64,000 bases of DNA from positions 124,001 to 188,000 of the forward strand of contig CANXME010002420.1 of the NCBI GenBank assembly GCA_948144175.1, written 5' to 3'. How positions within the stretch are numbered: the stretch's first letter is position 1; the number at the start of each line of letters is the position of its first letter. This stretch comes from Closterium sp. NIES-65. Lineage: Eukaryota > Streptophyta > Zygnematophyceae > Desmidiales > Closteriaceae. A program made the translations under genes and the position numbers. Below are positions 17,084 to 59,115 of this stretch, one piece after another. A model generated the notes under the pieces. The model searched no databases, had not been told where the DNA came from, and worked only from the letters and a program-made list of their open reading frames with translations.

Positions 17084-17574
17084 TGTAACAGTGTGGCAGC
17101 CGAATGCTGCCAAGTACACTGCAGGTGGGCGGAAGTCAAGCGCCACCTCACCAACTGTTCGTATTGGTCAAACGCCTCAACCTGCAGCTGAGCGACCAGG
17201 TCCTGACGCGCAACCCAACACAAACCCTCGCGCGAAAATTACAAAACGCAGAACACCGAAGTTCCGACCGCTTGCCGACTTCGCCAACAACACCGACGAA
17301 ATTACAGCCCCGTAACCAAGCTCACCGTCCAATCCCGTACCGCAATAATTCTCTGAATTTCACGGCAGGTTCATTTCAAAGGGGTTGGGTTACCATTGAG
17401 AAATTCAGAGAGAGTCGCGACTTGGGAGTGCGACTCGATATTTGAATGTGCTCTATAAAATTGTACTGTGAAATTTGTGAAGTCATAGTGCAATTTCCAG
17501 AGAACTCCAGAGAGCACTCTATCCTCGTTTTCCTAGCCTACTAAGGCTGCTACTTCCCTGCCAGCAACGTTTCA
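17084..17574 (+). repeat. Gypsy 5' LTR
   Basis: 491 bp, TG...CA termini, TATA-like ctctataaaat at about 17451-17461. The following aatcagagcc (17580-17589) is a possible degenerate primer-binding site. Confidence 0.92.
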
Positions 17575-17630
17575 CTAGTAATCAGAGCCTGGTTAGTTAT
17601 TTCGCACGCTCCCGCCATATTCTAGACCCT

Positions 17631-22953: not shown

Positions 22954-23260
22954 CCGCTCGCCGACTTCGCCAACAACACCGACGAAATTACAGCCCCGTA
23001 ACCAAGCTCGCCGTCCAATCCCGTACCGCAATAATTCTCTGAATTTCACGGCAGGTTCATTTCAAAGGGGTTGGGTTACCATTGAGAAATTCAGAGAGAG
23101 TTGCGACTTGGGAGTGCGACTCGATATTTGAATGTGCTCTATAAAATTGTACTGTGAAATTTGTGAAGTCATAGTGCAATTTCCAGAGAACTTCAGAGAG
23201 CACTCTATCCTCGTTTTCCCAGCCTACTAAGGCTGCTACTTCCCTGCCAGCAACGTTTCA
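22770..23260 (+). repeat. Gypsy 3' LTR
   Basis: This 491-bp LTR is preceded by the polypurine tract ggaggggga. At 22951-22953 it has TGA where the 5' LTR has CGA, which ends the pol frame inside the LTR. Confidence 0.92.
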
Positions 23261-23274
23261 CTGCTGCAGGTTTA

Positions 23275-24633
23275 ATGGCTGCTGGTGGTGATGGTGATGG
23301 TGCTGGTGGTGGGACCGTTTCAGTTTCATCTGGTGCTGGTTTCAACGCCCCGCCTCGTGCTGCCGCCCGCCCTCCAGCTCAGCTTCCCTTGGACCATCTC
23401 CCGGGCATGCCGGGGCAGAGGTCGGGCGAGTATTCTTGTCCTATCTGCGGCAAAAACTTCCCCACGTCGCAGGCGCTTGGGGGACACATGACGGGCCACG
23501 GGGCGCAACGTAAAAGGACGTCTCGAAAAAGGGAGGCAGCAGCAGCGGCGGGAGCGGCAGCAGCTAAAGCAGGGCCAGCAGGAGGAGGGAGAGGAGGCAT
23601 GAGAGGAGTATATAGAGGAGGGGAGGGAGGAGGAGAGGGAAGGGGAGGGAGAGGGGGAAGGGAAGGGGAAGGGGAAGCGGAAGGGGGAAGGGAAGGGAGA
23701 GGAGGAGAGGGAAGAGAAAGGAGAAGGGAAAAGCGAGGGGTGGGATGGGGAGGTGAAGGAGGTCCAGAGAAGCTAGTTGACAGAGAAATAGGGGGTGCTG
23801 GTGGTAGTGCCAAAGCAAGTTCTTTCAAATCTCGCCCCACTCTCCCATCCCAACCCACTCTTTCTTTCCCATCCAAGCTCAAGGCAACCATTATGCATCT
23901 CCCTTCTATATCTGGCACCAGCAGTGGTAGTGCTGCTGCTGCTGCTAGTGCTGGTACTAGTGCTGATGCTGCTACTAATGCTAGTGCTGCTGCAAGTGTT
24001 GATGTTAGTGCTGCTGCTCGTGCTGTTGCTAGCATTAGCACTCCTGCTGTTGATAGTGCTGCTGCCGCTCGTGGGGGTCAGTCTCGGTTCAAGGAAGCAA
24101 CACAGCGTGGAGTCTCCACTGGTGCTGCTGATGCTTCTGCTGCTCCTGCTCCCGCTGCTCCTGCTACTCTTGCTGCTCCTTCTGCTGCTGCTCCTGCTAC
24201 TGCTGCTACTGTTGCTTCACCCTTCGCTACTGCTGCCTCTCCTGCTTCTGCTGCTGATCCAGCTGCTCCTTCTTCTGCTGCTGCTCCTGCTACTCCTGCT
24301 ATTGCTGTTTCACCCTTTGCTTCTGCTGCCACTGCCAGTGCCACTGCCACTGCCTCTCCTGATGCTATTTTATCGATTCCGCAGCTACTGGAACGCAATC
24401 CAATCCTTGGCGCCAGCATGGGCCGCAACCCAAGCCTTAGCCTCGGTCCGAACCTCGGCCAACGCCCGAGCCTGACAGGCGGGCAGCCGAGCCTCTTGCA
24501 GTACGTTGGGGCAATGCCTCGTCGAGACGCCCTGCCTTCACTGAAACCAACTTCGTTAGAATCACCTTCATTTAGAGCACCTTTCTTCACGCCTCCTTCG
24601 CTAATGCCTCTTTCTGCAATATACCCTCTATGA
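23275..24633 (+). CDS. Plant-type C2H2 zinc-finger protein (QALGGH)
   Basis: ATG 23275 follows an AG acceptor-like ctgcag (23268-23269). Near residues 58-80 is one finger, YSCPICGKNFPTSQALGGH followed by MTGH, spacing C-x2-C-x12-H-x3-H. QALGGH is the plant EPF/ZAT signature for DNA binding, so a nuclear transcription regulator is likely. Around it are a basic KRTSRKRE stretch (possible nuclear signal), a Gly/Arg/Glu repeat and long Ala/Ser-rich stretches. TGA at 24631-24633 ends the frame, but the same frame stays open to 25269 and includes a repressor-like motif. The gene may therefore be truncated by a point mutation or be genuinely this short. The chromovirus sits 15 bp upstream of the ATG. 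Confidence 0.75.
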   Translation: MAAGGDGDGAGGGTVSVSSGAGFNAPPRAAARPPAQLPLDHLPGMPGQRSGEYSCPICGKNFPTSQALGGHMTGHGAQRKRTSRKREAAAAAGAAAAKAGPAGGGRGGMRGVYRGGEGGGEGRGGRGGREGEGEAEGGREGRGGEGRERRREKRGVGWGGEGGPEKLVDREIGGAGGSAKASSFKSRPTLPSQPTLSFPSKLKATIMHLPSISGTSSGSAAAAASAGTSADAATNASAAASVDVSAAARAVASISTPAVDSAAAARGGQSRFKEATQRGVSTGAADASAAPAPAAPATLAAPSAAAPATAATVASPFATAASPASAADPAAPSSAAAPATPAIAVSPFASAATASATATASPDAILSIPQLLERNPILGASMGRNPSLSLGPNLGQRPSLTGGQPSLLQYVGAMPRRDALPSLKPTSLESPSFRAPFFTPPSLMPLSAIYPL

Positions 24634-30508: not shown

Positions 30509-33378
30509 TTAGAAAAAGCCCTTGCCTCCGAAAAAGCCCTTGCGCTTCCCCAAGAACCCCTTTCTCTTACCAAAGAACCCCTTCCGCTTACCAATGAAGC
30601 CCTTGAACTTGCGCTTGTGATGGTGGTGGTGGCCTGTGAGAATTGGGCAAAAAGGGAAGGGAAAGGTTGATTAATACACAGTGAGAAATATACATGAACT
30701 ACAAAAAGGTTCTGGAAGTGACTTAAAGAATGATGGAAGTACAGGGAACGAGGGCAGTGGTGAGGGGGTTGGGAGCAGGATGTTGTGAGATTTTGTGCAC
30801 ATTTGAATCCACACATGCATACGGAAGAGGGAAAGAGAGCCTAGGTCCTTCACCTCTGCCCCCAGCCCTTCCCCTCTTCCCCTTGCCCTTCCCCTCTCCC
30901 CCAGCCCTTCCCCTCTGCCCCCTGCCCTTCCCCTCTGCCCCCAACCCTTCACCTCTGCCCTTCCCATATGCACTAAACTCACTCCTCCCAACTCACCATG
31001 GCCATGCACCACCACCACAGCCGGCTTAGGAGCATGATGCACATGAGGAGGCGCATGCCCATGGGCGGGAGGAGGAGCACCATAACCAGGGTAACCCTGT
31101 GGCGGGTAACCCTGGGGAGGGTAACCGTGGGGAGGGGGAGCGCCATAGGGGGCGGGCGCATGCCCAGCAGGCGGGTAGCCTTGAGGAGGGGCGCCATAGG
31201 GCGCAGGGGGTTGTCCACCGTGGGGGGGAGCGCCATAGGGCGCGGGGACATGCCCGCCAGGCGGAGGAGCGCCATAGGGCGCGGGGGCAGCGCCAGGGTA
31301 ACCGCCTTGGGCCGGGTAACCAGGGTAACCAGATGGCGGGGGGGCATGGCCGCCAGGGGGAGGGGCGTGGCCGCCCGGGGGAGGGGCGTGCTGCTGGGGG
31401 TATCCGTGGGGGGGTTGGGCGGAGTGGGAAGCAGCTGCTGCTCCTGCTGCTGCTGCGGCGGCGGGGGCGCCAGGTGCACCGAGAGGCTGAGATGGGTGGC
31501 GGAAAGGGGGAAGGGGAAGAGGGAGACAGGCAAGTGACGGGTCACAGAATGTTACTGAAAGAACCTATGGGTTCCAGGAAAACATGTGCAACAAGCAACA
31601 CGTAAATGAGGACCACAGTTCCCGAGTTGATTTAAACGATCACCGGAATAAAACGCTTGGAACGCTCCCGGTTCTTTGGCAACTTACATACACGTCGTCC
31701 GAACAGGGCAGAAAAGGAGAAGGGGAAGCAAGCCAGCACGAATCAAGAGGGGGACGAGTGGCAGCACGAGGCAGTGAAAGCGACAGAAACGATGGGCAAG
31801 TGGATACGGAGGTGAGCATACCGGGTAGTACTTTAGAGCGAGACGAAGACTCCCCTGCTGCCTGCAGTCGCAAGAAGTGCGCGCAGAATTGGAAAACATT
31901 TGCACCAGTAGAATGGAGGAAAGGGAGATTGAAGAAACAAACAAAAGGCCAGAAAACAGCAAGTTCAATCCCTGACATCTGGATGTGTATGGCAGAAGAA
32001 CCTTTTGGTATAAAGAGCTAAGAGAAGGCGAGTGTTTCTTCTTCTTTCCTGTCTGAATGGGTGTTACAAACTCGGATGCTTCGAAACTGAGGTGGAAATG
32101 CTAGAAAGCTTACCTGCCCTTGGGAGTGAAGAGAGGATGCCACGTGTCCCACACGGGAAGGCTGAAGGCCTGTCGGATATTCACCCTGAGAATGTCATGT
32201 CACGGACGGAAATTAGTAAGAAATAAAACTTGAACTTTCTTACGCAGGCCTATGCTTACTCATCACTCGCTTTGGTTCCTAAAAACAAGTGGTAAAACGG
32301 CTGACTATCTTTTACACTTTAGTTCCGGTAAACAACATCACTGGACTGAGCTGGCAGAAAAATGCGTACCCGCATGTTCCAACCTTGTCGTCATCCATCC
32401 GGATTAGAATATAATGGGGATAACAATTCGAAAGCGGGCAAGTGCGGGTAACGCAAAACAAAACTACTGGCTGAGAGGGAAGCTTACTTGCAAGTCCCAA
32501 TCTTGTCATCCGCCTTCCTGTTTTCGTTCCAGACTGCGAGTTGGGCCTCGTCGACGCCATGGATAACGTTCAGGCGGAAGGTCGTGTTCCACACCGGCGA
32601 CGTGTGTCCGTCTAGAAAAAAAGAAACGGACAGGAAAATGATGCAGAGGTAAATATGATGAAGAATAGACAACAGCTGGTAGGTCGTGTTCCACACCGGC
32701 GACGTGTGTCCGTCGGGTAAACAAGCAATGGACACGAAAATTATGTAGAGGACATGATTAAAAATACGCGATTGCTGAAAGGTCGTGTTCGAAGTTGGTC
32801 GTGTTCACGTGTAAGAAAGACGGCGAAGAGAATTCGCCGGATGTATGGCATTAGTTAGCCTAAATTCAACGCTGAAAGGTGTTGACGAAAGTTCACAATG
32901 GCACAATTTTCTGAAATACCAGCATTAGTAAGGTCTCTGTAACAGCGGGGAAAATAAACATGTAGAAAATAAAAATGGAGACAAAGACAACACAACAATG
33001 TTCGGTGTTTAGGTCGTCACCTTTGTGAGTCTTGGTGCGGTGAGTCTGTTGACCGTAGATCAGAACCGCGTACGGATCTTGCATGCCAAAGATCTCCGTG
33101 TCCTTGAGATCCCTCGCACCAATTACTGCATACAAAATACGCACACCCAATCAGGGTAATAAAATCGTCATAGTAACGAACAGCCGATCAGGGTGACACA
33201 TTTCTGAGAAGAAAGAAGCATCGGCAAGAAATCTTGCAGTCATCAATGTGACAGTCAGGCACAGCTAGGTCAAGTCAGCGTCGCAGACAACAGTCAGACT
33301 AACATTCTTGGCACTCAAACGATGATCGTCAATGCCGTACTACTTACTGGTGACATCTAGCCACCCTGCAGCAGCCAT
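30509..33378 (-). CDS. C2-domain protein with GYPPQ/PYGAPP tail and basic Gly-Phe C-terminus
   Basis: Seven minus-strand exons join in phase: 33378-33348, 33125-33021, 32611-32488, 32185-32114, 31861-31822, 31486-30997 and 30633-30509 (stop). The product is 328 residues. Residues 1-124 form one C2 domain: AGWLDVTIIGARDLKDTEIF, MQDPYAVLIY, SPVWNTTFRLNV and a last strand SLRLALKYYP. Such domains bind Ca2+ and phospholipid; Asp positions in DLKDTE and MQDPY fit Ca2+ sites. Residues 125-285 are Ala/Pro/Gly/Tyr/His-rich with GYPPQ and PYGAPP repeats. The end is GHHHHHKRKFKGF and repeats of GKRKGFF. The layout resembles small plant C2 proteins with XYPPX-type tails. Introns 2 and 3 carry copies of exon 3 edges. 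Confidence 0.87.
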
Positions 33379-35796: not shown

Positions 35797-38039
35797 ATGT
35801 TTCCGAAGACACGCGTCTTCGACGCGCGGCTGACACGTGTCGCTCTTCTCCTGTTGGTCGGCGCGATCGTGGCTTACGGCGGCGCGCCATGCGAGCCGTC
35901 TTCCCTGCGCGGGTTCACCAATTCCGTTGACCTATCGGGAAACGGGTGAGTGGAAATGGGTCGAAATGGGTCGAAATGGGTGCGTGGGAATGCATGTGGG
36001 TGCAAATGTATGCGTGGAAACGGGTGAGTGGACATGACTGAGTGCACTGCGTGATCTAAATGTGCTTATCCGTGTAATGTGAAAAATATATTTCCTGTAA
36101 CGTGCACATCCGAATGTTGAGTAGAAGAAGCATTGTTGAAAGAAATGAGCCGAAGTGGGTGAGCGGAACGTGCTCATCTAAGCCCCGTCTTCGGCTCTCT
36201 TCCTCCGCCCTTCCCCCTCTCCCTCCCCCTCTCCGCTCTCCCGCCTCCCCCCACCCGCCCCGCCCCCAGTCTCGTGCTGCACTGGGCGCGCAACGCCTCT
36301 CATCTGCAGCTCGCACTAGAAGCCAAACCGGCCAGTGGGGCCGAGTCCGGCTGGTTCTCCCAGAAACTGGCCGTCGTTCATTCGCTAACCCCCACCCCTT
36401 GCACCACGCCTCTTTCCCGTGTCTCCTCCAGTCTCGTGCTGCACTGGGCGCGCAACGCCCCGCACTTGCAGTTCGGACTAGAAGCCAAACCGGCCAGTGG
36501 GGCCGAGTCCGGCTGGTTCTCCCAGAAACTGGCCGTCGTTCATTCGCTAACCCCCACCCCTTGCACCGCGCCTCTTTCCCGTGTCTCCTCCAGTCTCGTG
36601 CTGCACTGGGCGCGCAACGCCTCGCACTTGCAGTTCGCACTAGAAGCCAAACCCGCCAGTGGGGCCGAGTCCGGCTGGTTCTCCGTCGGCTGGACGGCAA
36701 ACCGTGGCCGTATGTACCCCGCGGATTGCGTGATTGGGAACCTTCCGGGAAGCAGCGTGCGCGCGTATCGGATCTCCGGATACAGCCGGTCTGACGTGGC
36801 GCCTTCTGATAGGTTCAAGATTGGAAGGCCTGTGCTGTCAGGGGGAAGTAATGGCGGGACAATCATAAGGTAAGAAAACAACGCCAGGAAGAATCCACTT
36901 GTTTTTTGACAAGTGAGGTCAGAGAGTTGGGAGAGGGGGCTGTCAAAAGTAACGGCAGGAAGAATCCAAAATGAGAAAGCAAGGGAGATCCCGGAGTAGA
37001 GGAGCGTACCGAAAGTAATGGCAGCTGCAGCAGCATTTGAGTTTTTTGCCCCCTTCCCACTTGCTCTCTCCTCCTCAACTCCCCCCCTCGAGCCACCCTT
37101 CTTCTGCCTGCAGGTTCTCCCGATCAATGGGGAGACGGGAGTGGCGGTACCAGTGAGTTTCAGTGGCAGCAGCAGCAGCAGCAGCATCTGGCCCTTATCC
37201 CTCCCGTCCCGCCTCTCTCCTCCGTCCCACTCTCTCTCCTCTCTGCAGGTTCTCTCGTTTCCGAGGGGATGGAGGGACGGTTCCAGTGAGTTTCAGCGGC
37301 AGCAGCAGCCTCATCTGGGCTTTCTCTGAGTCTGGATCGACTGAGCTGGCCTTCCATGGCGACAACGCGTGAGTGAAGGAGTCAGTGATTGAGTGAGGGA
37401 GTGGTTGAGTGAGTGAGTGAGAGTGAGTGAGTGAGTGAGTGAGGGAACCTATGATGGTGGCTTTCAGTGGCAGCAGCAACCTCATCTGGGCTTTCTCTGA
37501 GTCTGGATCGATTGAGCTGGCTTTTCATGGCGACAACGCGTGAGTAAGGGAGCAAGTGAGTGAGTTTGAGTGAGTGAGGGAGAGAGTGGGTGAGTGAGAG
37601 ACGTATGTGTGAGGAGCCAATGCTGGTGAGTCTGGATCGACTGAGCTGGCCTTCCATAGCAACAACGCGTGAGTGAGGGAGTCGGTGGTTGAGTGAGTGA
37701 GTGAGAGAGTTTGTAAGTGAGTTTGAATGAGTGAGTGAGTGAGTGAGAGATTTTGTGAGTGAGTGAACCCTGTGGTCAGTGATTGAGTTTGTGAGTCAGT
37801 GGTTGAGTGAGGTTCGATGAATATGGACTTCTCCTGTGCGGCTGCACCCTCTAGCTCAGTAGGTGATAAATGAGAAACCTAATCCCACTCAAACGTTTCT
37901 TTCCGTCCCTTCCATCCTGTTACTCAGAGGTTCAATGAATGTGGACTTCTCATGTGCGTCTGCACCTTCCAGCTCACAAGGAGGAGGAGGTGGTGGTGGT
38001 GGTGGCATTGGTGACAATGATGCTGGCATGGGTGGTGGA

Positions 38040-38070
<31 letters not shown>

Positions 38071-38282
38071 CATATGATAATGATGACAGGGATGAGGGTG
38101 ATTTTGAGAGGGGGGGTGATGATGGTGGTGATGATAACGAGGAGGGGGACGAGAAGGATTATGGGCGATGGAAGGAGAGGCATAATGATAAAGATGATGA
38201 TGATGGGAATGATGTTATGGATGATGGTAATGATAATGATGATATCAAGAGGGGAGAGGATGGGGATAATGATGGGGATAAC

Positions 38283-38326
<44 letters not shown>

Positions 38327-41300
38327 GGATGAGGATGAGAGATACGGGAAGGAGGGTAATGGCTCCTCAAATGGTGATGGTGATGGTGATGGTGATAAGG
38401 AAGACGTTGAGAGTGGGGATGATGATGATGCGGATCAATATGATGATAGGTTTGGGGAGGTGGATAATGATGGTGATGATGACGATGATGCTCATAAGGA
38501 GGAAAATGGAGGGAACCAGTCATTGGCATCCACGTCAGCAGTCTCTTCTGACAGTGACAGTGGCAGCGGCAGTGGCAGGGGCAACGTGGCATGTGAGCCG
38601 TCACCCCTGCCTGGCTATGCGTGCTCCATTCAACTTCAAGGCAACGAGTGAGTGGGATGGGGAAGAGTGAAGAGCAGAGTGAGTGGCAGGGGCAGGGACA
38701 GGAGCAGGAGCAGTGTGGCATGTGAGCCGTCACCCCTGCCTGGTTATGCATGCTCCATTCGACTCAAAGGCAACGAGTGAGTAAATAAGAAGAGAGTGAG
38801 TGGGTCAGGGGAAAGTGAGTGGGTTAGGGGAAAGAGAGTGGGTTAGGGGAAAGTGAGTGGGTTAGGGGAAAGTGAGTGGCGGTGGCAGGGGCAGGGTGGC
38901 ATGTGAGCCGTCGCCCCTGCCTGACTATGCGTGCTCCATTCGACTCAAAGGCAACGAGTCAGTGCGGATGGGGGGGGCGTGAGTGGCAATGGCAAGGAGC
39001 AGGGTGGCATGTGAGCCGTTGAACCGGCCTGACTATGCGTCCTCCATTCGACTTAAAGGCAACAAGTGAGTGGGGACGGGGAACAAGGGAGAGAGTGAGT
39101 GCAGATGGTATGAACTGTATTAGATGCAATGAGTGAGTGCAAGGAAGACTTCGTTGCAATGCAATGCATTTATCTCGCAATGAATTGCATTGCATGCATT
39201 TCATGTGAGGCGTCAAAGTGCATATATGTGTGTTCCATTTGACTAAGACATTGAGTGAGTAGAGAGGGGGGGGGAGCGGGTGAGGACGGGGAAGAGTGAG
39301 CGGTAAAAGTTGAGAGAGTGGGGCAGGGATGTTGTTGAGAGGGGCGGGGCGGGAGTAAGGAGAGTGAGCCCACACCCTCTGAGTGAGCCCACACCCTCTG
39401 AGTGAGCCCACACCCTCTGAGTGAGCCCACACCCTCTGAGTGAGCCCACACCCTCTGAGTGAGCCCACACCCTCTGAGTGAGCCCACACCCTCTGAGTGA
39501 GCCCACACCCTCTGAGTGAGCCCACACCCTCTGAGTGACTTTTGATATAAAATGTCTCTCAGAGAGAGGGTGTCTTTGAGTCGAGGGTGACTCCTGATTG
39601 CGCCCTTCATTACCCACACACCCGCTGACTTCTCTGACTTTTCATACTTAAATACCTCTGAGAAGTGACTGTTGTCATCCCCCTGTTCCACCCTTCGACT
39701 CCCTAATCACATTTCTCCCCCCACCTCCTTTCTCCCTTCCTGTTTCATCCTCCACTGGAAACCCGGGTAACAAATTTCACATCCGCTCTCTTCCACCCCC
39801 CTGTCCTATGTCCCTTTCCCCCCTTTCCAGTTTCATCCTTCACTGGAAAACTGGGGCTGATACAATAGCAATGGCTGCTGACGTGGCGACGTCTGGTTGG
39901 GTGGCAGTTGGATGGTCCAGCAGCGGCAAGATGTACCCCGCTGATGCAGCCATTGGGAATCTGCCACGTGGCACTCTCGCCAATGGGGCGGCGGTGGGAG
40001 CATACCACCTCAGCGGGTATGGCCTGTCTGACGTGGCGCTGACGTCATCATTTGAGCTCACCAACACATCGGCCACCACAGCGAATGGGAGAACCACCAT
40101 CACGTAAGTGTCGAGCGTTTTTTAAATTTCCTTATCCAGCCTGAGCGGTCGGATTTTTTTTTTCCCCTAAACCCTCTCTTGACTCCTCTTCTGCACAATA
40201 ATATATGAGCACAATCACGGAAATACAACTTCATAAGTAGGCTGCGTGATCCACATGTCAGATGTGTCAGGATGGCCGTGTTGGTCTAAGGCGCCAGTTT
40301 CAGGTCTTGGTCCGAAAGGGCATGGGTTCAGAACCCATTCCTGCCATGATCGCCCATAGATTTTGTCTCTTCTTCATCCTCTTCCTTGTCTCGCCCCCTT
40401 TATCTTGTTTCACCCCCTTTCTCCCCACCTTACATTTTTCCTCCCTCTTAGCACCAGCAGCGCCATCTTTGTTAGCCTTTTCAGCACTCGCCATGTCGAA
40501 TCTTAGACCCTTCTTCCCCAATCCATTTCCCCACCTCTTTCCCTTTCCCACATCTCTCTATCCCTTCCCTCACCCCTGTCGCCATCTGTACTGTACCCAA
40601 TACCCTCCCACCCATCTTCCTTTCGGTCTTTATGGGGTGTTAGCATCCTCTGAACCTCAAATTCAAGGGTTCGAGCATCCCTTCCTTCCAAACCCCACAT
40701 TGCTGCCCCTTTCCCCCGTTATCCCTTTATCCTCTTCTTCTCCCACTCCTCCCCATTTCCCGCTATCCCCCATGCAGCTTTGAACAGCCCTCTGGACCGG
40801 ACTCTCCTCGCCTCCTTCACCTGCTATTCCCCCATCCTCCATCCATTCCCCGCAGCTTTGAACGAGCCTTCTGGGGCCGCACCCCCCCTCCCCCTCTCTC
40901 CCCCCTCCTTCACCCGCTATTCCCCATCCTCCATTCTTTTCCCTGCAGCTTCGAACAAGCCCTCTGGACCCGCACTCCTCCACCCCCCCCCCCCCCCCCC
41001 CGGTCCCCATCCGCAGCAGTGGCGCCTGGGCCTTGTCTCTCCTCCCCTTCATCCGTATCGTCTACCCACAACCCCTCTCCCCTATCCTCAATTCGCTTGC
41101 AGCTTCGAGCGACCCCTCTCAGTGGGAGCCGTCCCCATCAGCAGCCGCGGTGCCACCAGCGTGCTCTGGGCCTTCTCTCGCTCCGACTCGCAGCAACTGG
41201 ACGACCACGGCCCCAACGAGTGAGTGCACAGGCTTTAAGGAGACGGGGGGGGGGGGGGGGGATAGAACTTTATGGGATGAGCACCGCTGTGTGCTCCTCT

Positions 41301-44068
41301 GGGCCTTCTCTCGCTCCGACTCGCAGCAACTGGACGACCATGGGCCCAACGAGTGAGTGCTGTGCAGTGGGGAGGAAGGAAGGGCTATAGTATGGCTGGG
41401 CTTGCATTCTCTGGGCCTTCTCGTGCTGTGACTCGCTAGAATCAGCAAACAGGGGCTCCGTTAGAATCAACTTTGTTTCAGGCACAGTGGAGGTTGAGGA
41501 ATCAAGCAGAATTGTTGAAACACTTTATGCGGCAGCCTATTTCAGTGGCAACCAGCTCACTTACTCATCTCTCCTCCCCTTCCTAACCCACCTCAGAGGC
41601 TCTGTTACAGTCAACTTCACTAGCAGGGGCTTCTCTAGAAGTTGAAACACTCTCTGCGGCAGCCAATTTCAGTGGCAACCAGCTCACTTACTCATCTCTC
41701 CTTCCCTTCTTTTCAATCCCCCCTCATCCTGCCACCCCACCCCACCCCCAATTTCATTCCATACCCGTGTGCCTTACAAACAGAGGCACTGTCGCAATCA
41801 ACTTCGTTTCAGGCACAGTGGAAGTTGAGGAACCAAGCAGCAGCGCCGAAGCACTCTATATTGCGCACGGGTGGATTCTCACTGTAGCTTTTGGCATTCT
41901 CATGCCTGCGGCCATGCTTATATCGAGGATATTCCTCTCTGATAAGCCTGCTTCAGATTTTGGTGCAGCAGCTGCACAGGCAGCAGAAGAAGAAAGGGAA
42001 GCAGAGGCAACGGGAGGGAGATTAGGGTTTCCAGGTCAGGCAACGTTGCACGAAGAGAGGGACTTTGAGCATATGCATTTGAAATCAGCTAGAGATGCAG
42101 CACAGTATGCCTCAGGGGAAGCAGGAAAAGCGTCAGCAGCAGCAGGAGCAGCAGCAGGAGAAGCAGCAGCAGAGAGTGGGATGCCTGGTACTGGTACTAC
42201 TGCAAGCAGGGGAAAGCCTTGGATCTCCAAGGCACATGCATTCGAGGCCCACAAGTGGATCATGCTCCTCGCTGTCACGCTCTCATTGGTCGGAATCATC
42301 ATGGCGTTTGTCCAAAAAGGATCGAGCTCCCTGCAGTCGACACATGGCAGGCTGGGATTGGCCGTGCTGCTGCTGATCTTCCTCCAGCCAATCATTGGAC
42401 AGCTGAGGCCTGTCAAGGGCCACGTGTCGCGACGCTATTGGTTCGCGCTGCATTGGGTGGTGGGAGTGGCGATTGTGGCAATGGCTTGGAGCAACATGTT
42501 CCTTGGGCTTGACCTTGCAAGCAGCAGATTCGGCTACAACCTTGAAGTGAGTCTCGCAACCCCCTTTTTTGTTCTGTGTGAGATTCGGTTTGTGGGTCTA
42601 CTCATTGAATGGCTTGGAGCAACATGTTCCTTGGGCTCGACCTCGCAAGCAGCAGATTTGGTTACAACCTTGAGGTGAGTTGCTGCATGCATGGTGTGTG
42701 GCTGTGGCTATGGTGTGTGACTGTGGCTATGGTGTGTGACTGTGGCTATGGTGTGTGGCTGTGGCTATGGTGTGTGGCTGTGGCTATGGTGTGTGGCTGT
42801 GGCTATGGTGTGTGGCTGTGGCTATGGTGTGTGGCTGTGGCTATGGTGTGTGGCTGTGGCTATGGTGTGTGGCTGTGGCTATGGTGTGTGGCTGTGGCTA
42901 TGGTGTGTGGCTGTGGCTATGGTGTGTGGCTGTGGCTATGGTGTGTGGCTGTGGCTATGGTGTGTGGCTGTGGCTATGGTGTGTGGCTGTGGCTATGGTG
43001 TGTGGCTGTGGCTATGGTGTGTGGCTGTGGCTATGGTGTGTGGCTGTGGCTATGGTGTGTGGTTGTGGCTATGGTGTGTGGTTGTGGCTATGGTGTGTGG
43101 CTGTGGCTATGGTGTTCGGCTGTGGCTATGGTGTGTGGTGATGTGACTTGAATCCTGATTATGGCAATGGCTTGGAGCAACATGTTTCTTGGGCTCGACC
43201 TTGCAAGCAGCCGATTCAGCTACAACCTTGAAGTGAGTCTGGCAAACCACTTTTTTGTTCTGATTGAGATTCGGTTTGTGGGTCTACTCATTGAATGGCT
43301 TGGAGCAACATGTTTCTTGGGCTCGACCTTGCAAGCTCAACCCTGCAGCCAATTTGGCTACAGCCTTGATGTGAGTCTAGCTACCATTTTCTGGTTTTTG
43401 AGGCGCCTCAAAAACCACCTCATTGCATACAGCTTTGATGTGAGTCTAGCAACCATTTTCTTCTTGTCGTTCTTTCGTAGTAAGAAGAAAGCTGCATCGC
43501 TGCCCTTGGCCACAAGTTACAACCTTTCTTGGCTCACGCTTTGAGTTTCGTCTAGTTTCTTCTGCTATTTGAATGTATTGTCTGTGGTCATGCATGTCTA
43601 TGATTGCGATGCGGATTATGAGCTCCTTGGGATATTCAAGAAAACGCATTTTTATGCACCATCTTGACTTGAATGTCACTGCCTTTTTCTCCATTTTCTT
43701 CCCTGTTCTTTTAGGTCCCAGTTTTGAACTTGCTCCCCACCCGGTTATGCAGTTCGGCCTTTGTACACTGGCTACAGTCATAATAGGAACTCAACATCAA
43801 CCTTTCCTTCGTGTTCCCTATCTCCCCCGCCCCCCTCTCCTCCCCCTCCGCCCTCCACTTCTCTCATTCTCCCCCCTTTCATCCTATACTGGATTGTATG
43901 CAGTGGTATTACATTGCATTCGCAGTTATGATTGGTCTCTTCACTCTAGCTTATGCTATTGATTTCGCCTGGGACCAAGTCGGGTTCTGCATGCTTCGAT
44001 ATAAGCAGTCTAATGTCGAATCGGAGCCACTCAACTCCAAAGAAGTGGAGGTCATTATGATGTTGTAA
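35797..44068 (+). CDS. Double-DOMON cytochrome b561 (CYBDOM) membrane protein
   Basis: Eight exons join in phase: 35797-35945, 36594-36869, 37249-37368, 37928-38647, 39831-40103, 41103-41219, 41784-42546 and 43904-44068; 860 residues. Residues 15-30 are a signal peptide (RVALLLLVGAIVAYG). Two DOMON modules follow at about 50-180 and 422-550 (LHWARN...SGWFSVGW...MYPADCVIGN; LHWKTG...SGWVAVGW...MYPADAAIGN), each preceded by a CEPS...GN exon. An Asp-rich insert fills about 205-390. The b561 core has five membrane segments; His in AHGW, AHKW, STHG and ALHW fit the four haem ligands. Family role: transmembrane electron transfer, often from ascorbate, with DOMON binding haem or sugar outside. An Ala-rich loop of about 100 residues between helices 1 and 2 is unusual. 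Six of seven donors are GTGAGT or GTAAGT/GTAAGA. Each intron holds exon-edge copies. Confidence 0.9.
36270..36593 (+). repeat. Two extra 162-bp copies upstream of exon 2
   Basis: Copies start at 36270 and 36432; the exon-2 acceptor copy starts at 36594. Each begins TCTCGTGCTGCACTGG after an AG. The unit is 54 codons and all three copies are open in one frame. Splicing to the first AG would therefore add 108 residues without a stop. Confidence 0.93.
37114..37192 (+). repeat. Decoy copy of exon 3 start in intron 2
   Basis: gcctgcag then GTTCTCCCGATCAATGG and GTGAGTTTCAGTGGCAGC repeat the exon 3 start (37249), but the frame is shifted, so it cannot replace exon 3. Confidence 0.8.
37462..37860 (+). 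repeat. Exon 3 end copies and exon 4 start copy in intron 3
   Basis: 37462-37539 and 37628-37668 repeat the end of exon 3 (GAGTCTGGATCGA...AACGC) with a following GTGAGT donor. 37810-37860 repeats the start of exon 4 (ATGGACTTCTCCTGTGCG). Between them is (GAGT)n sequence. Confidence 0.88.
38715..39255 (+). repeat. Four decayed copies of the exon 4 end in intron 4
   Basis: Copies at about 38715-38777, 38896-38957, 39003-39067 and 39200-39255 repeat the exon 4 end (CATGTGAGCCGTC...GGCAACGA, 38586-38647), most with a GTGAGT or GTCAGT donor. Decay increases with distance from the exon. Confidence 0.9.
39363..39537 (+). repeat. 19-bp tandem repeat, nine copies, containing GAGTGAG
   Basis: Unit gagtgagcccacaccctct repeats perfectly about nine times in intron 4. 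Each unit contains the core of the splice-donor context seen in this gene. Confidence 0.95.
40266..40346 (+). tRNA. tRNA-Leu(CAG)-like gene in intron 5
   Basis: The sequence follows the plant tRNA-Leu pattern: acceptor GTCAGGA...TCCTGCC with one mismatch, GGTCTAAGGCGCC D-arm region, anticodon loop TTCAGGT (CAG), short variable arm TCCGAAAGGGC, T-arm ATGGGTTCAGAACCCAT and discriminator A. A TTTT tract follows near 40361. The A box has an extra T (GTGTTGG where GAGTGG is usual), and the anticodon stem has a wobble and a mismatch, so it may be a pseudogene. It is sense-oriented inside the intron. Confidence 0.65.
40778..40990 (+). repeat. Three decoy copies of the exon 6 start in intron 5
   Basis: AG acceptors followed by CTTTGAACAGCCC (40778), CTTTGAACGAGCC (40856) and CTTCGAACAAGCC (40949) repeat the exon 6 start CTTCGAGCGACCC (41103). 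They lie in a pyrimidine-rich stretch, so acceptor strength is repeated too. Confidence 0.88.
41290..41640 (+). repeat. Exon 6 end copies and exon 7 start copies in intron 6
   Basis: 41290-41351 repeats the exon 6 end (GGGCCTTCTCTCGCTCC...CCCAACGA) with its GTGAGT. 41407-41440 is a weaker copy. 41453-41505 and 41595-41640 repeat the exon 7 start (GTTAGAATCAACTTTG, GTTACAGTCAACTTCAC against GTCGCAATCAACTTCG). Confidence 0.85.
42606..43446 (+). repeat. Exon 7 end copies and 19-bp minisatellite in intron 7
   Basis: Copies of the exon 7 end (ATGGCTTGGAGCAACATG...AACCTTGAAGTGAGT) lie at 42606-42675, 43160-43234 and 43293-43372, with a fragment at about 43425-43446. Between the first two is a 19-bp minisatellite (ctgtggctatggtgtgtgg, about 42700-43135, roughly 23 units). 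It is open in all three frames, which explains the long ORFs there. Confidence 0.9.
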
Positions 44069-45970: not shown

Positions 45971-46181
45971 CACCCCCATAGGCAAAGTGGGGGAGAACAA
46001 GGGGTCACAAGACCAGTCAAGCAAAGCAAAGCAAAGCAAGCTCAGGGTGGATCACAAAGTCACCACACATTCCGAGCACAAATTCAAGGCCACAAGGCCA
46101 GCTCACATGCCGGAGTATATATATATAAACAGGCTAGACAAGCAAGAGCAGGTATATATATATGTAACAGTACAAGCAAGG

Positions 46182-49100
46182 TCAAGAAGTGAGCAAGTGA
46201 GGCAAGGTAGGCACAAGGCCCAGCTGAGTACAGAAGCGCTGATGGTCACAAGGCGCAAGCGCCTTGGTGAAGATATCAGCAGTGTTGGCCTCAGAGGCCA
46301 CGTACGCAAGACGCAGCTGACCACGCTGCTGCAGCTCACGAGCAAGAAAGTAGCGGAGAGCAATGTGCTTCGTTCGGTGTTCCAGTCGCTGCTCCCGACA
46401 CAAGGCCAGCATGGCGTTGTTGTCTACATACAGCACTGGAGGAGAACGAGGCGGCTCTCCGAGGTCAGTCAGCAGGTAGGTGAGCCAGCGAAGCTCCTGT
46501 GCAGCCATGGCTCCTGCGTAGATCTCAGCCTCACAACTGGAGCCGAGAACAGAAGACGAGCGAGTAGCCCGCCAAGAAACAGAGCCGGAACCAAGGCTGA
46601 AGGTGTAACCCTGTGACGACCGCTGCGTAGCCTGGTCGTCAGCCCAAGAAGCGTCTGCGTGCCCAGTAAGGACCACTGGACTCTGCCCTCCAAGCACAAG
46701 CCCCATGCCCGACGTACTGCACAAGTAGCGCAACACCCTCTTTGCTGCAGCCATGTGCTCCGGTCTGTGTCTCCCAAGAGCAACATAGCGTGCGAGAATG
46801 CTAAGAGGGTATGCAAGGTCAGGTCGTGTGCAGGTCATCGGGTACATGAGGCAGCCAACAAGCTCTGGGCACGGGCCACTCGACTCTACAGACTCATCCG
46901 AAGGCAGAGCTGAGAGCGAGTGGCGAGTAGGCAGAGGAGTGGCCTGAGGCGAGGAGTACGTGAAGCCGAAGCGCTGAAGCACATGCTGCACCATGTGTGA
47001 CTGAGTCAAGGTAATGGTGCGGCGTGCTCTGTCCCGAGTGATCTGCAAGCCAAGGTAGCTGCGCAGTTCACCCAGGTCAGTGCACGTGTGTCTCTTTTGC
47101 AGCTCGGACTTCACGTGGGCGAGTCCAGCAGTGTCAGCTGTGGCAAAGACCAAGTCCTTGACGTACACGAGGATGTAGAACGGCGGCAAAGAAGTGTCGG
47201 TGCGCAGAAACAGCGACGGGTCGGCAGTAGAGGGAGCAAACCCAAGAGCCGCAAGTGTAGTCCTCAGTGTGTCGTGCCACTCACGCGGTGCCTGGCGGAG
47301 ACCGTAGACTGGCTGCCGGAGGCTCCACTGGGTGCCAGGAGGAAAAGACCCAGTGAAACCAGGTGGGCGACGCAGCCAGATCTCCTCGTGCAGGCTGCCC
47401 TGCAAGAAAGCAATGCTGAAGTCAAGAGAGTGTAGCTCGTAGTCGCGGTGAGCAGCTATGTGCAGCAGTACCCGAAGAGTGGTCATCTTCGGGGTGGGGG
47501 AGAAGGTATGAAAGTAGTCAACTCCCTGCCGCTGACTGAAGCCACGAGCCACGTAACGCGCCTTGAAGACAGGCGGAGAACCCGGCGGTCGCTTCACCCT
47601 GAAAATCCACATGCCACTAACAATGTTCGCCCCAGGAGGGGGAACAGCGTCAACGTAGGTGCCTGTGGACTTCCAGGAAGCCATCTCTGCGTCCATAGCT
47701 GCCTGCCACTGAGAGGAGTAGGGACCCTCTATCGCCTCCACGTAAGAGCGCGGAGTCGGGATGTCAAGTGCATCCGGGTCTCCCTCAGGGGCAAGCAGTA
47801 CGGATACGAGATGAGGTGAAGCAGCGGCCAAGCACTGGAACTCCTCCTGCCTGTCCTCAAGGACGTCCTTGCCAAGGGCACACTCACCCCCGACGGACGG
47901 AGGACAGACAGACTCAGACTCAGCAACAAGACTGGCGGCATAGTCTAGACGACAGCGAGCAGCAAAGTCGACGAGCTCAGCAACTAGGGCAGACGCAGCA
48001 GTGGACTCAAAGGAAGGGTCAGTGACAACAGTAGCAAGGAGACGCATGACAGTAGGAATGGCAGCACGAAGAGAGTCCGACTCTGGGTCGGCAAGAGCAG
48101 GAAGAGAAGACTCAGGAGGAGAAGGCAAAGGGGCACACAGAGGAGCAGTGGACGGACGCAGAGACATCCGGTGCGTGCCAGGGACAGGAGGAGGACGCTG
48201 ACGCGAACCGCGACCACTAGTGCGAGCAGCACGGACAGGCGACGCAGGGCGAGACGCAGGCTCACGACGCTCAGCAAGACCTCCAGTAGGACCAGTGTAG
48301 GGAGACGGAGCAGGCAGTGGGGAGGCTGGCTATAACTGTAACTGCGACGGGACAGGCTGTGGACACTCTAAGGGAGGAGGAGGACCTGTAAAAGACGGGA
48401 GACCAAGAACCTGCTGAAGGAGAGGAACGAAGTACGGCCGAGGCCGCGTGGCGACTCCAGACACAACAGGGACAGCACCAACACCCCTAGTGGCAGCACC
48501 AGCACCAGTAGCAGCTCCAGCTCCAGTACCCCCAGCAGCACCAGTAGTACCCCCAGCAGGACCGCCTCCAGGACCGACAGCAGTAGCCTCCGCGCCAACA
48601 CCCGCAGCAGCTCCAGCTCCAGAAGTACCCGCAGGTCCAGCAGCTCCAGTACTCCCAGTACGAGCACCTCCGGAACCCGTGGCACCAGCTCCCTCAGCAG
48701 CAACAGAACCTCCAGTACCCGCAGCACCTCCAGCTCCAGCAGCTCGCCTCTAGCGCCAGGCAAACCACTCACGCAGCTCCTGTGGAGAGAGTGGCTCCCG
48801 GCAAGAAGAAGCACCCGGAGAACCGCCAGGCACAGCACCAGCAGGCCCAGCTCCCTCAGGCTCCGCACCCCCTGGCTCAGCACCTCCAGGCGTAGCACCC
48901 CCAGGCTCAGCACCCCCAGGCTCAGCACCCCCAGGCGTAGCACCCCCAGGCTCAGCACCCCCAGACTCAGCACCCCCAGAGTCAGCACCCCCAGGCTCAG
49001 CACCCTCAGCAGCACCAGAGTCACCAGCGACCTCGACAGGCTCAACAGCGTCTACCTGGGACACACCTGAAGGGGCAGGACCCTGAGGGGGGAGGGGGTC

Positions 49101-52071
49101 TACCGGGGGGGGACCTGGTACAAGGAAGAGCGGTGGCGGGGGGAGGGACGGAGTGCGGTAGGGGAAGAGGCGGTAGTAGGGGACCGACTCGTCAAACGTG
49201 ACGTCCTGGGAGGACAGAACACGGCGAGAGGTGGGGTGGTAGAACTGCCACCCTGGGGCTTCAGGGGGGAAACCCAGGAAGACGCAAGGAGCAGCACGAG
49301 GGGACAGCTTGTCCGCAGACAAGTCGCGGACAAACGCCCGAGATCCCCAGACACGGAACGCAGACGCATCGCCAACCTTCCCCCTCCACAACAAAGCTGG
49401 GGAGGTCTCCGGCATGGAGACCCTGGGCTGAAGGTTGATCTGATGCGCCGCGTACCAAACCGCAAACGGCCACAGAAAATGGGGGGCAGCCGCATGCATC
49501 ATGGACGTACGGGCGACGTCCATGACCATGCCAATGCGGCGCTCAGCAATCCCATTTTGCGGGGGAGAGTCCGGAAGCGTGAAGGTCTGGCGGATGCCTC
49601 GTGCACGACAGTAGGCTCGCAGAAGGCCAGAGGAGAACTCTCCGCCTCGGTCAGAGTGCAGACGCAGAACAGGAAAGTCTGAGCCGAAGCTCTGCCTGAG
49701 CTGGAGACGAGCTGCGCGGATCCAGTCGATCAACACCTCAGTAACATCACCCTTGCTGCGCAAGGGGAAGAGTGTGGTGTAACGCGAGTAGTTGTCAACC
49801 ACCAGCAGGAAGTAGCGCTCGTGACCCTGTCCATGGACGCGGGCTGGGCCCCACACGTCCATGTGAAGCGTCTGCAGCGGGGCCTCTGTCGGAGGAAACT
49901 GGGAGGAGTGAGGGGTAGTCCGCTGTCGCCCCTCGACACAGGGGACGCAGGTAGGGCCAGGCCCTAGAGGAAGGGGAGGGAGGGACCGGGGAAGACCAGA
50001 GACAAGGACACAGGAGGCCATGCTTCGGAGACGAAGCAGGGAGGGGTGACCAAGGCGGTGGTACTAGAGGAGAGTCTCGTGAGACAGGAGGCGACACGAG
50101 CAGGGGGCAGACTCAGGACCAGACCTGGACGCTGCAGCTAACACCTGACCCGATGCAGCTACCTCACCAGACGCAGGGACTGGAGGAGACGCAGTGGTCA
50201 GTGTGTACAGGCTCGACCCCGGCCGACGTGTAAACGTGGCCAGGTGTCGGCCTGTCCGAGCGTCCGTGCAGTGGGTCACCCGCAGACTCGCAGGAGTGAA
50301 CTCGGGAACCCCCGCATCCTGTAGGTCAGCACCACTCACCAGGTTCATAGAGAACGAGGGGAGGTAAAGACCAGACAGGGTGCCAGAGGGGGCCGCCGGA
50401 CACGGGAGGACAGTGGAGAAGTGAGCAAGGACAGGACCCCTAGAGGGGTCTGCCAGGGAGACTGCAACTGGCCGACCAAGCGGCGTGAGTGTGGTGCGGT
50501 CTCGAAAGAAGGAGCGAGAAGCCCCCGAGTCAAGTGTGAAGGTGTGGGAGGCCGAAGCCGACGCAGTATCTGAGAGCGCAGACTCACCAGTACCGGAGGA
50601 AGCAGACGCACTAGCACCTAGAGCAGCAGCCTCGCTAGCACCAAGAGCAGCAGCCTCACCAGCACCTAGAGCAGCAGTCGCAATGCCCGGGTCGGGCGGG
50701 AAACACCGGTAACAGTCACCCTCCTCACTAATAGACACAGTATACATAGCAGCAAGAATAGCATCAAAGTCAAGGTCAAAGATAGCTACCCCTGCCCTAG
50801 ACAGCTCGCCCCAGCGAGGGATCTCAGTGGCCTCAGGGAACTGGTGACGCCAAGCGTCCGTCAGGCGGCCAAAGCAGCGCTGGGTGGGGTGCGCACCCCT
50901 ACACTGCTCACCCGCACGGTCGCCAGTGCGCAGGACGTAGGTGCACGGACCAGTACCCCCACCCCGCTGGCGTGCAGCGTACCACTCACGGAGCTGCTGA
51001 GGGGACAGGGTCTCCCGACTGCGCTGCTGCTGCTGGCGCTGACCACCACCGGAGCCACTCCTCTGCGAAGAGCCACGACCTCCTCCTCCTCCTCCGCCAC
51101 CGCCTCCTCCACCTCCGCCACCTCCATCACCTCCGCTCCCACTGCCACCTCCGCCGCCGCCTCCGCCTCCATTGCCGCCGCCGACACCTCCACCCCCGCC
51201 ACCACTCCCACCACCACCCCCACCCCCTCCACTGCCTCCACTGCCGCCTCCACCGCCCCCGCTAGCTCCTCCAGCGCCCCTGCCCCCCTTGCCCTTGCCA
51301 GAGCTACGCTTCCCACTAGGGGTAGACGCCGCACCGACCGACTCCAGACCAACGAGGTCGGCCGCAGCAGCAGAGGCAACAGAGTGCAAAAGAGGGGAGG
51401 GGGAACACCCCTCAAAGATGGGGGTGCGCGGGTCACCACGAGAGGCCCCTACAGCGACTATGCTCTTCTCCGCTGCTAGGAGGGCCTTCTCGAGGAGATC
51501 AACGGTGAGAGTGGTGGGACAGACTGAGAGAAAGTGGTCCCTGACTACGCGAAGGGAGTCAGGGAGGCGGGTGACTATGTAGTAGAGAGTGATGTACATG
51601 GGGGGGGGGGTTCTTGGCGCAGAACTCAGCAGGAAGCGCAGCGCGGTAGCGAGTGTCACTAGTGCGGAGGTGCGTAATGAGGTCAGCGACTGTGGGAAAG
51701 GCAGCAAGGTCAGGGAAGAGGTACGGTAGCATGAGGCGGCTCAGTGCAGCAGTGGCAGGGGAGGAGTAGCGTGCAACTACAGCGTCGTACAAGGTCTGAG
51801 CACTCTTGTACTAGCTAAAGTGCGCACGCTCAGAGGTAGGCAGGTGGCGACGCACAGCAAGACGTGCAGCAGCATCGCGCATGGCCCACTGTGAGCGGAC
51901 AGTGGCGTCAGCATCAGCAGCAGGGGCAGGAGAGGCACCAGAGGTGAGGTCAAAGAGAGAGAGACCGTCCGCCCTATCGCACTGTAAGAAAAGCTGCAGG
52001 TCATCTATCAAGACGTCAAAGTCAATGGCCCGACCCTCAGCGTCAAAAGCGAGGACACTAGGGGTAGCCAT
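46182..52071 (-). pseudogene. Copia-3 Gag-Pol polyprotein with stops and one frameshift
   Basis: Starts at ATG 52071 and ends at the family stop 46182-46184. Gag, Gly-rich linker, zinc knuckle (CTYVLRTGDRAGEQC), protease LDSGAS, integrase, a short EPGGA linker (48840-49010), RT (YVKDLVF; the usual YVDD has Asp to Lys) and RNase H are recognisable. Defects against relatives: TAG 51811-51813 (CAG), an 11-C run near 51600-51610 (frameshift), TAG 50064-50066 and TAG 48750-48752 (both Trp codons), and TAG 48330-48332. The piece 46182-48167 is a 661-codon open frame, but the YVDD change would kill RT activity. Confidence 0.9.
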
Positions 52072-54617: not shown

Positions 54618-55306
54618 TGGTATAGAGCAGGTCCTTCTTAGGACCGATTCTTGTAGGGCCCACCACTACCTACCTACCTACCTACCTACCTGCGCCCTAG
54701 GGCGCCTCGGTTTTCACGGCCCTCTAAGGCCCCGCGACCCGCCCCTTAGCGACCCGCGACCCGCCCCTTAAGGCCCCGTCGGCCCACGCGCTTGCCCCTT
54801 ACGGCCCCGCACTCGCCCCTTTACGGCCCCGCGCTCGCCCCTAGAGGCCCCGAACGGCCCACGCGCTCGCCCCTAGCGGCCCCCGTCGGCCCCGCGATCG
54901 CCCCTAACGGCCCCGTCGGCCCCGCGCTCACCTCCCTAGAGGCCCCGAAAGGCCCCGTCGGCCCCGCGCTCACCTCCCTAGAGGCCCCGAAAGGCCCCGT
55001 CGGCCCCGCGCTCACCTCCTTAGAGGCCCCTTACAGCCCCGTCGGCCCCGCGCTCACCTCCCTACAGGCCCCGAACGGCCCCGTCGGCCCCGCGCTCACC
55101 GCCCCTAGAGGCCCCGAACGGCCCGTGACCGCCACAGCCCAGGACCGAACCGAGCCGCCCAGGACCGAACCGAGCCGCGCGACCCGAGCCGAGCCGCGCG
55201 ACCCGAACCGAACCGCGCCGCCCCACCCGAGCCGCGTCGCCCTACCTAAACCGAGCCGCCCTACCTGCTTCATCCTCCTACTCCTACTGCTACTCCTACT
55301 GCTCCT
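54618..55306 (+). repeat. Copia-4 leader with GGCCCCG-type repeats
   Basis: Hairpin 54630-54645 and the GTAGGGCCCACC block are followed by a tctacc-type run (cctacctacc), then roughly 40-bp units of the form ctagaggccccgaaaggccccgtcggccccgcgctcacc (54840-55120). Degenerate gaaccgagccgc units follow to about 55260. The sequence is unrelated in detail to the repeats of copies 1-3, though equally GC-rich. Confidence 0.82.
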
Positions 55307-58289: not shown

Positions 58290-58490
58290 CGGAGCCTGGG
58301 GGTACTGAGCCTGGGGGTGCTGAGCCTGGGGGTGCGGAGCCTGGGGGTGCTGAGCCTGGGGGTGCGGAGCCTTGGGGTGCTGAGCCTGGGGGTGCGGAGC
58401 CTGGGGGTGCGGAGCTTGGGGGTACTGAGCCTGGGGGTGCTGAGCCTGTAGGTGCTGAGCCTGGGGGTGCTGAGCTGCAGAGTCCGGAGT
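58290..58490 (+). repeat. EPGGA-coding 15-bp repeats, copia-4
   Basis: About thirteen units of GAGCCTGGGGGTGCT or GGAGCCTGGGGGTGC encode EPGGA/EPGGT between integrase and RT. Confidence 0.88.
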
Positions 58491-58759
58491 CTGGGGGTTC
58501 TGAGTCTGGTGGTGCTGAGCCTCGTAGTCCTACACCTGGAGGAGCCTTGTCCTCGGAGCAGCTGCGTGAGTGGAACTTACAGTACTACAGCCTCAGGAGA
58601 GGTACCTCTGGAGCCAGGCGTACTACTGGGACTGGTGCTAGTGCTTCTCCTCCTAGTCGGGAGCTCCCCTCCCGTGAGCGGATCCGTGAGTGGTACGAGC
58701 GGCGCTGCAATCTTCGGAGTGGTGCGCCTCGTGTCACGGACCCCGCTGCTGCTGGTGCT

Positions 58760-59115
58760 ACTGCTGGTGCTGCGGACCCGGGCGTTGGAGCTGCTACTGG
58801 TGCTGAGGACCCGGGCGTTGGAGCTGCGGCTGGTGCTGAGGACCCGGACGCTGGTGCTGCTGCTGGTGCTGAGGACCCGGACGCTGGTGCTGCTGCTGGT
58901 GCTGAGGACCCGGGCGTTGGAGCTGCGGCTGGTGCTAAGGACCCGGACGCTGGTGCTGCTGCTGGTGCTGAGGACCCGGGCGTTGGAGCTACGGCTGGTG
59001 CTGAGGACCCGGACGTTGGTGCTGCTGCTGGTGCTGCGGACCCGAGCGTTGGGGCTGCTGCTGGTGCTGAGGACCCGGGAGTTGGAGCTGCTGCTGTTGC
59101 TGAGGACCCTGGTTC
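58760..59115 (+). repeat. 30-33 bp coding repeats, copia-4 linker
   Basis: About eleven units of gctgctgctggtgctgaggacccgg(gcgttgga) encode GAEDPGVGAAA/GAEDPDAGAAA. This second repeat field is also present in the other copies in weaker form. Confidence 0.85.

Follow-up and report, generated by a model that had tools for sequence, protein, structure and literature searches.

Tandem duplication across splice-like sites can lead to intron creation or internal gene duplication, and supplies extra splice sites. Repair-mediated duplication by capture of proximal DNA in vertebrates (Pace et al. 2009, PMC2671141) yields local copies of nearby DNA, some with splice sites, together with filler sequence, as described in the sections of the paper covered here. 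For Daphnia, the corresponding sections of PMC4202315 describe neointrons from staggered double-strand breaks, with direct repeats of the exon end beside the intron and intron growth by repeated events. Tandem duplication of an exon with its adjacent intron, splice signals included, has been placed behind mutually exclusive exons in the part of PMC6071210 considered here.

In a gene of Closterium sp. NIES-65, we find copies of exon edges arranged as ladders in the adjacent introns. In a rung, the exon edge is joined to an intron end that in most cases opens with GT, as GTGAGT, or closes with AG, and a spacer of mostly 35-140 bp leads to the next rung; the exon edges found are about 12-215 bp long and lie on the exon-facing side of the adjacent intron. 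Whereas tandem-duplication intron creation gives rise to a new intron, here an old junction is multiplied. Compared with the vertebrate case, in which 4 of 824 human donor sequences are partial exon/intron (Table 2 of PMC2671141, within the sections covered), the Closterium copies are tandem, sit at junctions with a fixed polarity, and accompany 13 of 28 sampled exons; the ladder spacers could be repair filler. The exon-end repeats of Daphnia measure 4-12 bp and belong to new introns in the sections of PMC4202315 covered, whereas those of Closterium mostly measure 20-215 bp, belong to established introns and often number several per junction. Unlike the whole exons that serve as functional alternatives in the part of PMC6071210 considered, only exon edges are copied in Closterium. 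Ladders at established junctions, at this density, are not described in the sections of PMC2671141 or PMC4202315 covered here, and no description of such ladders was found in titles and abstract openings among the best-ranked matches, which took in few subscription journals.

The window, the 64-kb stretch of contig CANXME010002420.1 analysed here, holds a DOMON-DOMON-cytochrome b561 gene at 35797..44068 on the forward strand, whose eight exons (35797-35945, 36594-36869, 37249-37368, 37928-38647, 39831-40103, 41103-41219, 41784-42546 and 43904-44068) encode 860 amino acids in one open frame. All introns are GT-AG, introns 1-6 in phase 2 and intron 7 in phase 0. Pfam recovers a single DOMON stretch (421-537) and Cytochrom_B561 in the 860-aa protein, and we infer a first DOMON region upstream of the one found, in exons 2-3, because exons 2-3 and 5-6 match each other's places in related proteins. 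Homologous proteins number 28 among the matches listed (8000 candidates scored), every one of them named Closterium. A long Asp-rich linker, encoded by a GAT repeat in exon 4 (37928-38647), lies between both DOMON regions and is not of the same length in the window gene as in P0007, a protein predicted for the gene copy that lies on contig C1887. The 64-kb window gave no hits in Rfam and tRNA scans. Large frames on both sides of the gene, at 1-10000, 46000-51700 and 55250-61400, are presumably Copia-like polyproteins.

When the eight exons were searched against the seven introns with blastn (dust on, E<0.01), 17 matches were obtained, all of them in an intron adjacent to the matching exon and 14 touching the edge that faces this intron. 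Dinucleotide shuffling of the introns (200 sets) left 0.04 matches per set on average and 1 at most, and reversed introns used as a control gave 0 matches to the exons. At E<0.05, rungs stand on 10 of the 14 junctions with at least one per intron, while the donors of exons 1, 2 and 5 and the acceptor of exon 8 (D1, D2, D5 and A8) have no rung at this threshold. These counts bear out the preliminary description, which had placed exon-edge copies within the introns, on the donor side in introns 3, 4, 6 and 7 and on the acceptor side in introns 1-6 (both recovered at E<0.05, intron 5 by short pieces only). Its statement that junctions rather than entire exons are copied also holds: no copy contains a complete exon of the window gene, and the longest cover 95 of 720, 91 of 276 and 78 of 120 bp. 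Measured from the real junction to the farthest rung, ladder spans make up 58% of the intron DNA of this gene.

All rungs of the window gene are on the forward strand. Intron 1 carries two copies of exon 2 positions 1-91 (36270-36360 and 36432-36522; 95 and 97% identity) that together span 36270..36522 and belong to a tandem repeat with a 162-bp unit, and, at 36016..36031, the end of exon 1 in short form with GTGAGT (GGAAACGG+GTGAGTGG), a pattern match that is visible by eye although D1 is negative at the BLAST cut-off. A copy of the exon 3 start with a CTGCAG acceptor lies in intron 2 (37114..37176; 78% over exon positions 1-61). The 3' edge of exon 3 is found twice in intron 3, each time followed by GTGAGT (positions 43-120 at 37462..37539, 94%; positions 79-120 at 37627..37668, 95%), and the 5' edge of exon 4 once (positions 1-49 at 37810..37858, 88%). 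Three copies of the 3' edge of exon 4 are present in intron 4 (38682-38776, 38875-38957 and 38982-39063; 82-89%), with a fourth near 39202-39259 (72%) and a copy of the 5' edge of exon 5 (positions 1-25 at 39743..39767, 88%) in which AG is now TG. The ladder of intron 5 is made of short pieces only (17 and 24 bp; E<0.05), including a copy of exon 6 positions 29-52 (41003-41026, 83%), together with three GCAGCTT motifs upstream of the real one (40774, 40852 and 40945), short copies of the exon 6 5' edge with GCAG acceptors. In intron 6, the 3' edge of exon 6 occurs as a copy of positions 62-117 followed by GTGAGT (41297..41352, 96%) and as a truncated copy of positions 62-89 (41409..41436, 86%), and the 5' edge of exon 7 occurs at 41465-41528 (84%) and about 41597-41618 (82%). 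The 3' edge of exon 7 appears three times in intron 7 (42608-42673, 43157-43232 and 43294-43369; 94, 93 and 79%), with GTGAGT after each, and again as a 12-bp copy, then GTGAGT, that ends near 43439. Minisatellites at 38795-38879, 39362-39538 and 42691-43138, in two introns, have different units, all with a 19-bp period.

Within single ladders of the window gene the identities run 97/95 (A2), 94/95 (D3), 85/89/82 (D4) and 94/93/79% (D7). The decay away from the real exon that had been noted earlier stands as a weak trend, with a Spearman coefficient of -0.33 between identity and distance (p 0.019, n=49 non-independent rungs from five genes), and falls as a strict rule. The second gene with such copies in the window is a C2-domain gene on the reverse strand; the 5' edge of its exon at 32488-32611 is copied in the intron upstream (32678-32713, 36 bp at 97%, no AG at the start), and the 3' edge has a weak match at 32372-32400 (76%, E 0.075).

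Ladders occur at matching junctions in a near-identical copy of the cytochrome b561 gene (L021) and in four related loci of the same genome (L022-L025), where junction positions were set by hand with GT/AG checked and where, in two of the five loci, the first exons only were examined. In L022, 14 copies matching exon 6 lie upstream of its full-length match. At E<0.05, D1 and D2 are without a rung in all six loci, and D5 and A8 in those of the six where they are examinable. Ladder spans represent 51-74% of intron DNA across the six, window gene included.

Unrelated genes were sampled through exons hit by the Pfam profiles of chaperonins (PF00118), kinesins (PF00225) and proteasome subunits (PF00227), with 50 loci reduced by 22 redundant ones to 28 exons and copies accepted within 1.5 kb at E<1e-4. 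Exon-edge copies accompany 13 of these 28 non-redundant exons (chaperonin 10/17, kinesin 1/5, proteasome 2/6), and their polarity is the same in the three families: upstream copies correspond to the left exon half in 19/19 cases and downstream copies to the right half in 18/19. The remaining 15, including six from contigs C1103, C1667, C326 and C584, have no copies at E<1e-4, and prevalence therefore varies by gene. As a control with the low-complexity filter off, 13 of 56 outer non-exon stretches were found repeated elsewhere in the locus outside the exon, so that repeats as such are common in the Closterium genome. The recurrent short duplication across splice junctions that had been suggested from the window is supported, and the pattern extends past one gene, to related loci and to unrelated families.

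The junction motif is retained in most rungs, and similarity to the real intron end usually stops close behind it. In surveys of the gene family at E<0.05, with L021 left out as near-identical to the window gene, the splice dinucleotides read from the exon part alone are GT in 21/23 donor rungs and AG in 27/29 acceptor rungs (52 rungs). Identity to the real flank falls to 5/23 at +9 and +10 in donor rungs and is 10-17/29 at most positions from -4 to -12 in acceptor rungs. The extent of flank homology is bimodal: it ends within 15 bp in 19 of 23 donor rungs and extends 38-60 bp in 4, and it ends within 18 bp in 19 of 29 acceptor rungs and extends 30-60 bp in 10. Flanks of different junctions, taken as the null, have medians of 6 (donor) and 3 bp (acceptor) and 95% points of 12 and 38 bp. 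Simple junction-spanning duplication, with the flank as alike as the edge, accounts for a minority (homology to the real flank at z>4 in 10/52 rungs), and whole-module duplication is also seen, the flank being homologous (z>4) to the real or the previous module in 18/52 rungs. At the extreme, L024 has an exon 2 copy with 100% identity over 93 bp, and an exon 3 copy reaches 99% over 71 bp; the flank of neither is detectably related (z 1.2 for both). Since L022 and L024 diverge by only 2.6% in aligned intron bases, unrelated flanks of near-identical edges have not simply decayed, and flank decay as the source of sharp ends is rejected for young rungs (96-100% edges, unrelated flanks).

Whole-genome searches, which skip simple or very common words, covered the 874-Mb assembly and revealed no introner-type dispersal for the two spacers tested: the spacer of intron 1 has no match outside the window gene and its near-identical copy, and one exon 3 acceptor flank matched, among the matches listed, the same junction in L023, L024 and L025 plus one 39-bp partial. 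When 124 flanks were compared with the window and the sampled loci, 2 matched outside the gene cluster (a flank and its near-identical counterpart, 40 bp, 82%). A palindrome, TTTTGAGGCGCCTCAAAA (window 43396-43413), recurs in ladder spacers and is found exactly in 7 of the 75 loci examined, all of this gene family and some overlapping (L003, L005, L006 and L021-L024). The flank holding it also resembles, over 40 bp at 82%, a stretch beside a chaperonin exon, and the palindrome may be a small mobile or hairpin element.

Flanks that are exon-proximal in one gene are found at intronic rungs in another. The exon-proximal acceptor flank of exon 3 in L022 is that of the first intronic rung in L024 (40/40), and the flank that is exon-proximal in L024 belongs to an intronic rung in L023 and L025 (82-83%, 71 bp). 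Similarly, the acceptor flank of exon 6 is exon-proximal in L022 and at the first rung in L024. At the exon 6 donor, the flank that is exon-proximal in the window gene is at the first rung in L021 (94% over 82 bp), and the exon-proximal junction of L021, common with L022, falls within a 307-bp stretch that L021 shares with L024 at 96.7%. At the exon 7 donor, the window gene has flank P exon-proximal and flank Q at the first rung and L022 has the reverse, the cross-gene matches of P and Q each exceeding 404/404 null pairs. The exon 2 match of L024 holds two TGA and this locus may be a pseudogene; its three of the five swaps therefore show shared modules, with function not certain. The exon 6 donor and exon 7 donor swaps are independent of the status of L024.

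Around exon 6, a recent exchange between L021 and L024 appears clear from the alignment of L021:5331-5636 with L024:7410-7715 (307 bp at 96.7%), the sole other aligned stretch of this pair among the matches listed being 332 bp at 87.3%. At the exon 7 donor, edges are 88-95% identical within a gene (7 pairs) and 82-86% identical across genes with the same flank (3 pairs), which suggests concerted evolution at this one junction, all cross-gene edge pairs ranging over 80-88% and so touching the within-gene range. Sites at which exon and rung changed together number 2 between L022 and L024, 0 between L023 and L025 and 0 between the window gene and L021, and conversion is therefore rare on these time scales; changes in the rung only number 21, 23 and 3 in the same order, and in the exon only 9, 27 and 5, the same exon site being counted once per rung. 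With concerted sites at 2, 0 and 0, frequent conversion as the sole cause of edge similarity was rejected. The nearest exon for 59 rungs is that of their own gene in 16 cases, that of another gene in 15 and a tie in 28, many ties coming from the near-identical window gene and L021. Junction capture from the sampled related genes was likewise rejected as a general source of rungs, whose edges are no closer to the exons of others than to those of their own gene and whose flanks matched outside the gene cluster in 2 of the 124 compared.

The explanation that we favour, with confidence that is about even, is that the copies are rungs of junction-repeat arrays, which arise by short junction duplications followed by recombination within exon edges. 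Short duplications at junctions would found the arrays, and they would be tolerated since the intron would absorb the additional copy while one intact edge remains on the exon body. Out-of-register recombination or conversion, inside one gene or between related ones, would then add, remove and swap rungs, with exchange anchored in the exon-derived edges as the part that stays homologous; edges would therefore stay alike while flanks diverge separately. A deletion between two edges would promote the next rung to functional junction, such that rungs would be promotable or demotable, and the process would add intron length and be neutral for the protein. Support for such arrays comes from the excess of matches over shuffled introns, the same pattern in unrelated genes and the swaps in flank status. 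Against them count the rarity of conversion and the young rungs (96-100% edges) with flanks unrelated to the real one, which require that edges were homogenised recently beside old flanks or that some process supplies new flanks. The part played by L024 in three of the five swaps and the 15 of 28 sampled exons that lack copies also weigh against them. Junction-repeat arrays do not account for new rungs whose flank is new as well.

A break or nick tied to the splice site and repaired with filler or captured DNA, such that the edge is copied as far as GTGAGT or AG and a new intron end inserted next to it, is an alternative that we consider rather unlikely. It would agree with the bimodality of flank homology, most rungs stopping within 15 (donor) or 18 bp (acceptor), and the same is seen among the 22 rungs whose exon part has 90% identity or more: 16 stop at this short extent when compared with the real flank, and 12 do so with all more proximal rungs too. 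Among edge-touching copies in the unrelated families, 21 of 27 extend less than 25 bp beyond the profile hit, and in the window gene the exon 6 donor flank and that of the outermost exon 2 rung share no homology with neighbouring flanks. However, the 18 of 52 rungs with homologous flanks run counter to this explanation, as do some flank types common to related genes with swapped status, which are therefore older than the split of those genes. Acceptor extents, moreover, are blurred by the pyrimidine richness of these flanks, 38 bp being reached by 5% of null acceptor pairs. We know of no mechanism by which splice sites would be targeted at the DNA level. Homology that stops near the junction is not predicted by plain tandem duplication, and edge-anchored exchange can also give sharp ends.

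That such plain tandem duplication of junction-spanning segments, followed by a selection filter and decay with no exchange, produced the ladders by itself seems improbable to us. With introns of 100-150 bp, 89-98% of tolerated duplications of the hand-picked unit lengths would span a junction, rungs and exons change mostly independently between duplicates, and the copy in the C2-domain gene belongs to a 102-bp unit that includes intron. Flanks should, however, match the likeness of the edges once two branches of divergence are allowed for, and most do not, even beside edges of 96-100%. At present intron lengths, random tandem duplications that avoid exon interiors span a junction 26% of the time, and the 11 of 11 units that do so would have a chance of ~4e-7 (6.5e-5 with doubled detectability), for unit lengths that were hand-picked and with the 69-bp repeat of intron 6 (41514-41582, 41641-41709) counted in the exon 7 ladder. 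Selection and formerly short introns can explain the junction bias, so that a splice-linked process is not needed for it; the sharp ends are left unexplained by them.

The preliminary description had also read the ladders as sets of alternative donors or acceptors. Regulated isoforms or NMD switches of this kind are very improbable: use of the 49 rungs with an intact GT/GC or AG would shift the frame or add a stop in 45, leaving 4 that keep the frame and stay open, among which are the two exon 2 copies in the window gene. The retention of GT in 21/23 and AG in 27/29 rungs would fit functional sites, but is expected of any captured intron end. Mismatch in bases that are rung-marked in both members of a pair amounts to 0.29% (window gene/L021), 1.6% (L022/L024) and 5.2% (L023/L025), compared with intron rates of 0.44, 2.6 and 7.3% and exon rates of 0.41, 1.3 and 3.4%, and is thus below the intron rate in all three pairs and above the exon rate in two; the marking itself favours similar sequence. 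Strong purifying selection on rungs is not shown by these rates, which for two of the pairs lie between exon and intron. For the rungs, both strong constraint and conversion that is frequent and recent appear unlikely, and mild constraint could still act on them. We take the exon-proximal rung to be the spliced one, from reading frame and homologues, and a designed set of alternative splice sites is not supported. An assembly error, a pseudogene or a multi-gene array misread as one gene is scarcely credible, since, although the exon 2 match of L024 holds two TGA and annotated proteins have repeated segments, the frame of the window gene is complete, the same rungs stand on two contigs that were assembled separately and matching repeated segments occur in predicted proteins of NIES-53 and Naga37s-1.

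Beyond junction-repeat arrays in single genes, it is possible, though we hold it only tentatively, that splice junctions in Closterium turn over genome-wide, with a row of spare junctions at many exon edges, addition and exchange that respect exon boundaries, moves of the functional junction from rung to rung, and introns that grow mainly by accretion. The ladders themselves, with spans of 51-74% of intron DNA, point to a route by which introns of an alga related to land plants could grow and have their ends renewed, and the origin of the intron ends is testable with closely related strains. The ladders also raise the question of how the spliceosome chooses the exon-proximal site among near-identical neighbours.

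The predicted Closterium proteins P0007, P0010, P0012, P0024 and P0003, all from public databases, contain repeated segments that match exon-edge rungs, and P0007 reads through the copies of intron 1. Gene models therefore seem to read rungs as exons, the practical side being that some predicted Closterium proteins contain rung-derived segments. Elsewhere in the window, the open frames at 17481-18500 and 23167-24633 have their first ~30 residues in common, as if the end of a repeat lay at the start of both; the former continues as what we take to be a Gypsy-like gag and the latter, presumably, as a zinc-finger-like protein.
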